Under the pieces are notes generated by a model that searched no databases, was not told the origin of the DNA, and worked only from the letters and a program-made list of their open reading frames with translations. From an uncultured Lachnospiraceae bacterium (GTDB lineage: Bacteria > Bacillota > Clostridia > Lachnospirales > Lachnospiraceae): a DNA stretch of 59,412 nucleotides. The stretch lies in the NCBI GenBank assembly GCA_934320845.1, contig CAKRFU010000017.1, positions 1 through 59,412 of the forward strand. The letters are read 5' to 3'. Both the position numbers and the translations under genes were made by a program. This document shows, one piece after another, positions 33,227 to 46,228 of this stretch (positions are counted from its first letter, which is position 1; the number at the start of each line of letters is the position of its first letter).

Positions 33227-34997
<1,771 letters not shown>

Positions 34998-35090
34998 AGA
35001 AAGTGAAAACTTTCTACTCCCACCCTATTATACGCTGGATAATGTATATTATCCGATAAAAAGAGCCTTCCCGGGCTCTTTTTATTTTTA
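34998..35090 (+). ncRNA. Candidate small structured RNA with terminator (unrecognised)
   Basis: Three helices follow each other: AGAAAGT/ACTTTCT with a GAAA tetraloop (34998-35015), GGATAAT/ATTATCC with a GTAT loop (35037-35054), and AAGAGCC/GGCTCTT (35061-35080) followed by TTTATTTTT. A CCCACCC stretch (35019-35025) lies unpaired between the first two. No plus-strand gene precedes it, since the nearest one ends at 33063 and has its own terminator, so this is either a small RNA or a leader of the HAD gene starting 52 nt later. It matches no riboswitch class I know. The 5' end is inferred from TATACT at 34984-34989. Confidence 0.6.
35057..35090 (+). terminator. Intrinsic terminator of the structured RNA
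   Basis: AAGAGCC (35061-35067) pairs with GGCTCTT (35074-35080), extended by flanking A and T runs, with a T-rich tail. Confidence 0.88.
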
Positions 35091-35141
35091 TGCTATAGAA
35101 AAATGCTATGTTATACCATTAAAATCAACAGGAGGATTATT

Positions 35142-35825
35142 ATGTTTAAATATATATTTTTTGACCTCGATGGAACATTGACGGATTCCAGCAAGGGAAT
35201 TATAAATTGTGTAAAATATGCAATGGATGCAGCCGGAGTTACTATTGAAAATGATGACGATTTGTTTGAATTTATAGGCCCGCCTCTTAATGACGGTTTT
35301 ATGACAATTTTGGGAATGAACAGAGAAGAGGCTGAAAGAGCAACAACAAAATTCAGAGAAAGGTATAATGTGACAGGACTTTTTGAAAATGAGCCATATG
35401 ATGGAATAAAAGAAGTGCTTGAAACATTATCAGAAAGAGGTTTTGTTTTAGCAGTAGCGACTTCTAAACCGGAGGAAACAGCAAAAAGAGTTTTAGAACA
35501 TTTTGAACTTACAAAATATTTTGATGAAATTGTCGGAAGCAGTGCTGAAGAAAACAGGAATACAAAGCAGGCGGTTATAGAAGAAGTTTTAAAAAGATTA
35601 AATATAATCGGGGCAGAAAAGCAAAGTGTACTTATGACAGGTGACAGAAGACATGATGTAATAGGAGCACATGCATGCGGTATTAAAGCTCTTGGAGTTT
35701 ATTATGGCTTTGCAAAAGATGGAGAACTTGAAGAAGCGGGTGCTGATTATATTGCAAAAAAAGTCAAAGATATATTAGATTTAGAAGAATTAAAATTATC
35801 ACTTAATAAACAGAAACAGTTGTGA
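35142..35825 (+). CDS. HAD hydrolase, phosphoglycolate phosphatase-like
   Basis: HAD phosphatase of 227 residues with a helical cap. Motif I is FFDLDGTLTDSSKGI, motif II the Thr of VATSKPEE, motif III a Lys of the NTKQAVIEE region and motif IV GDRRHDVIGAHACG. GPPLNDGFMTILG is in the cap, as in Gph-like proteins. Substrate unknown. AGGAGG precedes ATG 35142; an upstream in-frame ATG at 35103 has no ribosome site. It lies directly after the structured RNA and its terminator, so expression may depend on read-through or on a promoter hidden in between. Confidence 0.85.
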   Translation: MFKYIFFDLDGTLTDSSKGIINCVKYAMDAAGVTIENDDDLFEFIGPPLNDGFMTILGMNREEAERATTKFRERYNVTGLFENEPYDGIKEVLETLSERGFVLAVATSKPEETAKRVLEHFELTKYFDEIVGSSAEENRNTKQAVIEEVLKRLNIIGAEKQSVLMTGDRRHDVIGAHACGIKALGVYYGFAKDGELEEAGADYIAKKVKDILDLEELKLSLNKQKQL

Positions 35826-37741: not shown

Positions 37742-38416
37742 ATGGAAAAATTAAAAATATTGGTGGTTGATGACGAAGCGAGAATGCGAAAACTTGTAAA
37801 GGATTTTTTGATTAAGAGCAAATTTGATGTGCTGGAGGCTGGAGACGGTGAAGAAGCAGTTGATCAATTCTATGAAAATAAGGATGTTGCTTTGATTATA
37901 CTTGATATTATGATGCCTAAAATGGATGGCTGGGAGGTAGTAAGAGAGATAAGAAAATACTCTCAGGTTCCTATTATTATGCTGACTGCGAAAAGTGATG
38001 AGAAAGACGAACTGCTTGGATTTGAACTTGGTGTTGACGAATATATTTCAAAGCCGTTCAGCCCAAAAATATTGGTAGCTAGAGTAGAAGCAATACTCAG
38101 GCGTACAAACCAGCTTGATGATGGAGATATTGAAGTCGGAGGAATATATATAAATCAGTCGGCACATGAGGTTAAGATTGATGGCAATCCGATAGATCTT
38201 AGTTTTAAAGAATTTGAGTTGCTTACATATTTTGTTACTAATCAGGGCGTTGCGTTGTCGAGAGAGAGAATTTTAAATAATGTTTGGAATTACGATTACT
38301 TTGGTGATGCAAGAACCATTGATACTCATGTGAAGAAACTTCGCAGCAAACTTGGAAAAAAGGGTGAATATATTAAGACAATATGGGGAATGGGCTACAA
38401 ATTTGAGGTTGGATGA
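37742..38416 (+). CDS. OmpR-family response regulator
   Basis: Response regulator of 224 residues. The receiver has Asp10/Asp11, phosphoacceptor Asp55 in LIILDIMMP and a Lys in YISKPFSPK. The C-terminal winged helix includes FKEFELLTYFVTNQGVALSR and ARTIDTHVKKLRSKLG. It pairs with the histidine kinase whose start lies 1 nt after its stop codon. GGGGGT precedes the ATG. Its target genes are unknown; the neighbouring envelope proteins are candidates. Confidence 0.94.
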   Translation: MEKLKILVVDDEARMRKLVKDFLIKSKFDVLEAGDGEEAVDQFYENKDVALIILDIMMPKMDGWEVVREIRKYSQVPIIMLTAKSDEKDELLGFELGVDEYISKPFSPKILVARVEAILRRTNQLDDGDIEVGGIYINQSAHEVKIDGNPIDLSFKEFELLTYFVTNQGVALSRERILNNVWNYDYFGDARTIDTHVKKLRSKLGKKGEYIKTIWGMGYKFEVG

Positions 38417-38417
38417 C

Positions 38418-39995
38418 ATGAAAGATAACAAAAAAATGTTTGGAATAAAGTCAATTCGTACCAAACTTATATTGATAATGATTGGAATGCTTGGATTTAC
38501 ACTTGCTGCAATCTGGTTTATGAACAGGATATTTCTGCCGGCATATTATCAGCACAGCAAAGTGTCAATGTTAGAGGGATGCTATGAAAATGCAAACTCT
38601 ATAATAAACAGTGACAGTGAGTATAAATCAGGTGAGAGTGCGACATTGTCTGATGATTCTACATTGGATCTCGAAATATTGTCTGAAAATAATACGTCGA
38701 ATGTATATGTTTTCAGATTGAATAATTTTTTTGGAAAAGTGTATTATCAATATGATTATCCCGGTGAGAATGTGATAACACAATTTCAGAGAGAGGATGT
38801 TATTGACAAAACCAAGGATTATGTCGTAGGCATAGAAGATACACAGAGTTTTGCAGTCAAGGATAAAAAACGCCATTTAATGACGCTTGCGGATAACTAC
38901 AGTGTTTGTAAAGTGTTAGATGAGAGAATAGGCTCATATTATATAGAATTGTTTGGAAAGCTTGATTCAGGTGCATTTATTTATGTGAGCACAAATTATC
39001 AAAGCATGACGGAAAATATAGGGATTTTCAATTCATTTTTACTTTATGTCGGTATTGGAGTAATTGTGTTTGGCGTTGTGATAATGGTGTTTATAGGAAA
39101 CAATTTCACAAAACCGATAAGACAGCTTACGGGAATTGCTCAGAAAATGGCAGATTTTGATTTTGAAGTGCGCTATCCGGTAAAGAGTGATGACGAGATA
39201 GGCGCGTTGGGCAGCAGTATAAATACATTGTCGGAAAATCTGGAAGAAAAAATATCAGAATTGAAAGCGGCGAATAATGAGTTAAAGAAGGATATCGAAA
39301 ATAAGATTCAGATAGATGAGATGAGGAAAGAATTCCTTTCAAATGTATCGCATGAATTAAAAACACCTATTGCGCTGATACAGGGATATGCAGAGGGCCT
39401 GCAGGATAATATTAATGATGATGTTGAGAGCAGGGAATTTTACTGTGAAGTAATAATAGATGAAGCAGACAAAATGAACAAGATGGTAAAAAAACTGCTG
39501 ACTCTGAATCAGATTGAATTTGGAAATAATCAGGTTTCCTTTGAACATTTTGATATTGTGCAGGTTTTAAAATCAGTTATAAATTCAGCATTGTTATTAG
39601 CAGAGCAAAAAGAGGCTGTGATAACAATAGAAGATTATGAGCCTTTATATGTCTGGGCTGACGAATACATGATTGAGGAAGTTGTGACAAATTATATAAG
39701 CAATGCAATAAATCATGTTGACGGAGAGAAAAAAATAAACGTGAGTATGGTAAAACATGATGGCGTTGTGAGAGTTAGTGTATTTAATACAGGAAAATGT
39801 ATACCTGAGGATGAGCTTGACAAAATATGGATAAAATTCTATAAAGTTGATAAAGCAAGAACAAGAGAATACGGCGGCAGTGGAATAGGATTATCAATAG
39901 TTAAAGCGATAATGGAGTCTATGAATCAGAAGTTTGGTGTTATAAACCATGATAACGGCGTTGAATTCTGGTTTGAACTTGATACCGAAAATTAG
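38418..39995 (+). CDS. Sensor histidine kinase
   Basis: Membrane histidine kinase (525 aa). Two membrane helices (about residues 14-38 and 210-235) flank an external sensor domain of about 170 residues. A HAMP domain (NFTKPIRQLTGIAQKMADFD) leads to the HisKA domain with phospho-accepting His312 in NVSHELKTPIALIQGYAEGL. The ATPase domain contains the N box (NYISNAINHV), G1 (VFNTGKCI) and G2 (YGGSGIGLSIV). It is coupled to the response regulator just upstream. The signal is unknown. Confidence 0.94.
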   Translation: MKDNKKMFGIKSIRTKLILIMIGMLGFTLAAIWFMNRIFLPAYYQHSKVSMLEGCYENANSIINSDSEYKSGESATLSDDSTLDLEILSENNTSNVYVFRLNNFFGKVYYQYDYPGENVITQFQREDVIDKTKDYVVGIEDTQSFAVKDKKRHLMTLADNYSVCKVLDERIGSYYIELFGKLDSGAFIYVSTNYQSMTENIGIFNSFLLYVGIGVIVFGVVIMVFIGNNFTKPIRQLTGIAQKMADFDFEVRYPVKSDDEIGALGSSINTLSENLEEKISELKAANNELKKDIENKIQIDEMRKEFLSNVSHELKTPIALIQGYAEGLQDNINDDVESREFYCEVIIDEADKMNKMVKKLLTLNQIEFGNNQVSFEHFDIVQVLKSVINSALLLAEQKEAVITIEDYEPLYVWADEYMIEEVVTNYISNAINHVDGEKKINVSMVKHDGVVRVSVFNTGKCIPEDELDKIWIKFYKVDKARTREYGGSGIGLSIVKAIMESMNQKFGVINHDNGVEFWFELDTEN

Positions 39996-46087: not shown

Positions 46088-46228
46088 ATCATAAGAGATT
46101 AGTACAATGTATCAAAGATTTAATTTACGTTGTATTAGCTTTATAAAAAGTCTTTATATAAGGTGGGATATGTTGATATATGCAATGGATGACACATTAT
46201 CAACATACATTTGAAAGGAGTGTTTTTT

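Follow-up and report, generated by a model that had tools for sequence, protein, structure and literature searches.

A putative regulatory small RNA of Lachnospiraceae with promoter repeats in common with htrA-type protease genes

Structure, conservation and distribution of the RNA

The window, i.e. the whole 59,412-nt stretch of Lachnospiraceae DNA that was analyzed, carries on its plus strand a predicted small RNA of ~95 nt (34996-35092), recognized by fold and conservation, whose ends were placed by a -10 box and a T-tail; a HAD phosphatase gene (35142-35825) starts on the same strand ~55 bases past the terminator. Four elements of the plus strand make up the predicted fold: i) hairpin 1, of 7 bp with a GAAA loop (34998-35015; stem 34998-35004/35009-35015); ii) a C-rich core, ACUCCCACCCUAUUAUACG (35016-35034), which is unpaired and nearly constant according to pairing probabilities and alignments and is the presumed seed; iii) hairpin 2, of 7 bp with a GTAT loop (35037-35054; stem 35037-35043/35048-35054), supported by fold and covariation; and iv) an intrinsic terminator stem-loop (35055-35086) with a T-tail to ~35092, supported by a terminator scan and covariation. 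Both hairpins with their loops, and the CCCACCC spacer between them, had been pointed out in a preliminary description of the DNA and were found at the same positions. The terminator named there is present as a stem with a T-tail, but it has 14 pairs, four of them G-C, and not the 7-bp GC-rich stem that had been proposed.

The 111 nt from 34990 to 35100 folded at -30.9 kcal/mol, whereas shuffled versions averaged -15.64 (z = -5.07), and none of 200 shuffles reached the native stability. One terminator-like site was observed in the 801 bases scanned vs. 0.1 expected from shuffles, and the terminator was formed in both the minimum-energy and the centroid folds. Together with the conservation and covariation in relatives described below, these values place the proposed RNA beyond chance. 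For all 19 core positions the predicted unpaired probability was 0.99 or higher. Eleven further members were folded with their 3' ends set arbitrarily, and the mean over the core then ranged from 0.53 (L092) to 0.99.

Covariation was assessed in an alignment (A3) of 28 sequences, which comprised the close group plus L028. In A3, 99.9% of the cells paired and 14 of the 25 pairs had changed on both sides, with 33 double-changed cells; shuffles gave 5.3 of these, and sliding the partners no more than 6. Double-sided changes were found in five of the seven pairs of hairpin 2 and in nine of the 11 terminator pairs scored. Hairpin 1 barely varied within A3, and more distant members (L049, L082, L086) retained it in position with different stems. 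The core was nearly invariant in alignments A1 and A3, a constancy that is partly selected for because the underlying searches were seeded on the core; its variants were G264, which keeps the first half only, and G130, which is short of one base. A small protein as the product was rejected, since the distance from start codon to core, and hence the frame, shifts among relatives (alignment by inspection).

No Rfam family reached its gathering score at 34996-35092, the window's only Rfam match being a tRNA, and the 11 Rfam matches by E-value were all far under the family thresholds; the Rfam search thus bears out the earlier remark that the RNA fits no riboswitch class. The HAD protein of the window led to a homologue (71% identity; L001) in another member of Lachnospiraceae, Butyribacter intestini, where the same RNA is located between gdhA and the HAD gene. 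A sequence search with the RNA found it in 25 of the 28 genomes of the Butyribacter genus group. At the family level BLASTN gave matches in 30 of 299 sampled genomes, three of which (G096, G249 and G301) covered the terminator part only. A covariance model built from hairpin 1 and the core matched 30 of the 299 genomes; its additions were G105 and G264, both with box and terminator, and G261, a doubtful member (E = 0.009). At the class level the model matched four of 391 genomes, with G001 and G139 certain; those in G442 and G559, weak and without the core, were rejected as members. Phage (INPHARED) and plasmid collections yielded no match to the RNA. Most genomes with the RNA showed one copy, and some also diverged siblings.

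Based on these counts at genus, family (~10% of the 299 sampled genomes) and class level (certain in only 2 of 391), the RNA family seems largely confined to part of Lachnospiraceae. Conservation in related genomes had been set beforehand as the test on which the proposal could fall; the RNA proved conserved, with covarying stems. The label "orphan" does not apply; the promoter box, likely regulon and likely action of the RNA had been missed. In terms of sequence and structure, it looks like a conserved small regulatory RNA of Lachnospiraceae outside existing Rfam families.

Promoter repeats shared with htrA-type genes

Upstream of the RNA on the plus strand lies a four-fold direct-repeat box with an 11-bp period, TGAACG-N5-TTAACA-N5-GACATA-N5-GACATA (34936-34974; profile score 34.1). 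OmpR-family response regulators typically bind direct repeats of this type, and the box is presumed to be such a site. Nine nt past the box is TATACT (34984-34989, plus strand), a putative -10 element with similar spacing in most relatives. In their upstream regions a -10 box is preceded, at a distance of ~9 bases, by as many as four hexamers that repeat every 11 bp. Sigma-70 consensus hits were not in excess in the region (7 found vs. 7.3 expected), and the best one on the plus strand, TTGACA-N16-TATCGT at 34956-34983, provides an alternative -10; based on conservation, we prefer TATACT over TATCGT.

Fifty promoters of the family, the window promoter included, served to train a box profile with the consensus TTAACA-N5-TTCACA-N5-GACACA-N5-GACACA. 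All but one (L042) of the training promoters scored above 2 (49 of 50; 13 to 41), while the box was absent from four extra copies of the RNA: L042, L086, L090 (= L234) and L092. Two of 118,748 positions in the window scored above 10, one being the RNA promoter. The second is a box-like repeat at 46098 on the minus strand (score 13.6).

When a strict three-repeat pattern was run on the 28 genus genomes, it occurred at 22 places in 18 genomes, as compared to 3 for the reversed pattern used as control: 18 were RNA promoters, two were located before htrA (L168 and L165) and two before a second structured RNA (L167 and L155). HtrA proteases serve quality control at the cell envelope, and the htrA protein of L168 has Pfam Trypsin_2 and PDZ domains. 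Among the best 60 htrA-type loci (59 readable), a set that includes L171 and L172, the loci that first suggested the link, the RNA-derived profile scored above 10 at 41 of 59 vs. 9 of 1120 control windows from other loci, while 18 of 59 were below 10. A profile-free count, likewise with L171 and L172 in the set, found three repeats in 23 of 56 htrA upstream windows vs. one in each control set of 560 windows, random or shuffled. At the level of single positions, the profile exceeded 10 at 4 of 167,812 in the other loci.

Outside the genus, a looser box pattern was run on 25 RNA-bearing genomes and matched at 44 partly overlapping places in 21 genomes, while the control matched at 10. Thirty loci that were retrieved (28 distinct sites) included seven with the RNA and seven with a second PDZ/trypsin-like protease (for L262 the Trypsin_2 score was slightly under cut-off), in addition to htrA (L255), hsp20 (L250), an S-layer-homology protein (L252) and a peptidoglycan-binding-repeat protein (L265); a few loci were without an evident product. 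Co-regulation of the RNA with htrA-type proteases via the shared promoter repeats is our best reading of these sequences.

None of the 60 htrA loci had a response-regulator gene in its flanks. The only receiver-domain match was a receiver-domain-like frame near a box in G042 (L247 2320-2637, minus strand), which shares 31% identity with the response regulator of the window across 107 aa; it is a possible regulator candidate. The two-component system of the window (37742-39995), considered as the regulator, drew evidence neither for nor against this role, the NCBIfam scores shown being all below cut-offs.

The second box-driven RNA found with the strict pattern is ~250 nt long, structured and highly conserved, and is located downstream of prs in two genomes (L167 1500-1800; L155, minus strand). 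One of its hairpins covaries and has a CUCCCU loop; Rfam gave no match to this RNA. A sponge function for the second RNA of G001 and G012 was rejected: its duplex beat shuffles in G012 (1 in 300) but not in G001. The loci retrieved outside the genus also included box-driven stretches that are short and C-rich, end in a terminator and hold no gene (L243, L247, L257, L260 and L263), several of which have a UAGAU...UUUUUCAU-like motif in common (by eye).

Sibling RNAs and a candidate mode of action

In four genomes (G085, G272, G192 and G308) sibling RNAs were found in tandem with the RNA described above (type 1), ~170-380 bases upstream of it (L034, L037, L038 and L043). The model scored them weakly (17.6 to 21.4 bits), alongside matches due to chance, and several other weak matches were rejected as siblings, being on the antisense strand or due to chance. 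Each of the four siblings has a box of its own (scores of 17.3 to 23.7), a hairpin of the type-1 kind, a CUCCUCC-type stretch that replaces the type-1 core, and a terminator; in two of them (the type-2 siblings L034 and L043) CAUUCAU follows the CUCCUCC-type stretch. The sibling seeds would cover the Shine-Dalgarno sequence and, in these two, the AUG as well. The siblings provide the best clue that the type-1 core also acts on ribosome-binding sites, in parallel with csRNAs and LhrC (see below).

We propose, at a probability of roughly 70%, that the window encodes a ~95-nt trans-acting RNA which is co-regulated with htrA, controlled by a response regulator and uses its C-rich segment to pair with ribosome-binding sites. 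An OmpR-family response regulator for secretion or envelope stress, CssR- or CiaR-like, would bind the 11-bp direct repeats and switch on the small RNA and htrA-type proteases alike. Translation of target mRNAs would then be lowered through pairing of their G-rich ribosome-binding sites with the nearly invariant C-rich stretch left unpaired between the hairpins, while the terminator hairpin would end and protect the RNA. We infer the pairing step from anatomy and analogy, because no target was established by the searches described next.

The complement of the core (19 nt, up to 3 mismatches) occurred at 10 places beyond the RNA genes vs. 22 for the reversed control, while 25 RNA genes were recovered exactly. 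A long conserved antisense target was rejected: the closest other matches were one in G025, inside a coding frame, and three in G029, which belong to a repeated ~55-bp element. The motif GGGTGGGAG followed by ATG occurred at 62 places vs. 23 for the control. Of 31 such places inspected (30 loci plus L237), 25 were inside an open frame and were rejected as targets; among the six outside open frames, only L277 and L285 start long frames. Some places recurred with the same letters (in G008, G022 and G030, and in G001 and G012), and those inspected were inside frames.

The 19-nt constant core exceeds the typical seed length, and for this reason binding of a protein, with the RNA as sponge or scaffold and with its constant C-rich single strand as the contact in place of mRNA pairing, has to be considered. 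A core more constant than a seed requires and complement searches that returned no conserved target would both agree with it. We nevertheless judge protein binding unlikely: in siblings of the same architecture the seeds are C-rich but different, complementary to SD-like sequence and in two cases, through a CAU, also to AUG, and such differing seeds fit mRNA pairing better than protein binding; moreover, the member in G264 is without the UAUUAUACG half of the core. As for the regulon, TTHACA-N5 repeats also describe PhoP boxes, and the upstream two repeats indeed read TTTACA/TTAACA/TTCACA, as a member of the phosphate (PhoP) regulon might. However, seven pstS promoters of the genus group have TTTACA/TTAACA-type repeats without the GACAYA pair, and 0 of 163,290 positions in 26 pstS-type loci scored above 10 with the RNA-box profile, whereas htrA promoters match; membership of the PhoP regulon is therefore improbable.

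The RNA could also be a leader or attenuator of the HAD gene (35142-35825), with a premature stop at 35086 and conditional read-through, as its distance of ~55 bases from that gene on the same strand might suggest. In the close group, the flanks contained a HAD homologue at 13 of 27 loci and gdhA at 24 of 27, yet outside it neither gene was found at any of 24 loci (fetched flanks, mostly 1.5 kb; the linkage count took only loci with the exact ten-base core, L080 being among those left out), so that the RNA stands alone and its linkage to the HAD gene is not constant. The terminator formed in both predicted folds and the copies behind phage endolysin genes (see below) also speak against a leader, which we consider very improbable indeed. 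Judged from its genomic context, this is a free small RNA rather than a leader of the HAD gene, the option that the preliminary description had favored.

Parallels with known small RNAs and phage-type copies

According to two reports (PMC3091779, PMC8186281), the csRNAs of streptococci are controlled by CiaR via direct repeats of hexamers that are separated by N5 (11-bp period) and located ~ten bases before the -10; htrA is in the same regulon, many csRNAs have two stem-loops, several siblings occur per genome, and their sequences are able to pair with translation initiation regions. The RNA here is like them in the 11-bp period, the box-to--10 gap (9 bases), the sharing of the box with htrA and the sibling RNAs. 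Unlike them, it has units of TTNACA/GACAYA (TTCACA/GACACA-like) rather than TTTAAG-N5-TTTAAG (revised NTTAAG), up to four repeats rather than two and a 19-nt nearly constant core, and it belongs to another lineage; neither Rfam nor other sequence kinship to csRNAs was detected. Sharing of a regulon with htrA is indicated here by the promoter repeats, that is by sequence and not by expression. As for a complement of SD and AUG, an unpaired C-rich stretch is present in the core, which is without CAU, while CAU is found in siblings L034 and L043.

In Listeria, LisR drives LhrC transcription. LhrC consists of stem-loop A, a single-stranded stretch and a terminator loop, and its CU-rich motifs base-pair with ribosome-binding sites (PMC13350326). 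It works with LisRK, the regulon of which includes htrA (PMC6305404). The RNA here has a similar order of stem-loop, single-stranded C-rich stretch and terminator and a presumed link to an htrA regulator, but LhrC1-5 are five homologous copies as compared to mostly one copy here, and the lineage is different. The Rfam library includes an LhrC model, and LhrC was absent both from the gathering-score matches and from the 11 E-value matches.

The canonical CssR box, TTTTCACA, contains a TTCACA unit (PMC6749698), with which the TTCACA units at the RNA and htrA promoters agree, and CssRS of Bacillus induces HtrA and HtrB (PMC4812647). A literature search, judged at listing level, found no CssR-controlled small RNA. 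Nor did we find a report of the window RNA in the literature covered, which is thin for subscription journals and supplementary lists.

Six stretches of viral contigs contain a 17-nt core, accompanied by the hairpin in two (L092 and L090) and without it in four (by inspection). In L092 (8093-8139) the RNA is directly behind an endolysin gene, with a holin and a repressor nearby. The copy in L090 (5082-5129) matches L234 of genome G132 over the 205 bases printed, and in L234 the RNA is directly behind another endolysin gene, with a holin and a reverse transcriptase. Both phage-type copies are without the box (scores of -9.8 and -13.9); in L092 a promoter-like TTGAAA-N17-TATAAT takes its place (by inspection).

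It is possible, though on balance doubtful, that the RNA represents a third, sequence-unrelated case, after CiaR/csRNA and LisR/LhrC, of a general circuit of Firmicutes in which an htrA regulator is coupled to C-rich RNAs directed against ribosome-binding sites; that its age has allowed siblings to diverge; and that phages captured it behind lysis genes under box-free promoters, so as to apply a host envelope-stress brake on translation on their own schedule. The RNA also suggests that such coupling is a recurring Gram-positive design, which phages may exploit. Few small RNAs seem to have been described in Lachnospiraceae, a major gut family, in the literature covered, which is thin for subscription journals. 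The window RNA makes post-transcriptional control in this family directly testable: it is easily recognized and has a predicted inducer (secretion or envelope stress), predicted co-regulated genes (htrA-type proteases and hsp20) and a candidate seed.

Two minor observations concern loci already named. The ~55-bp element of G029 is present in three copies (L231 3984, L232 3787 and L233 3989) and has 18 bases in common with the RNA core; it is without hairpin 1, its flanks differ and one copy has a mismatch in the core-like bases. In L234, the locus that holds the RNA copy of G132, an Rfam RT-2 RNA (741-966) is located beside the phage reverse transcriptase gene.
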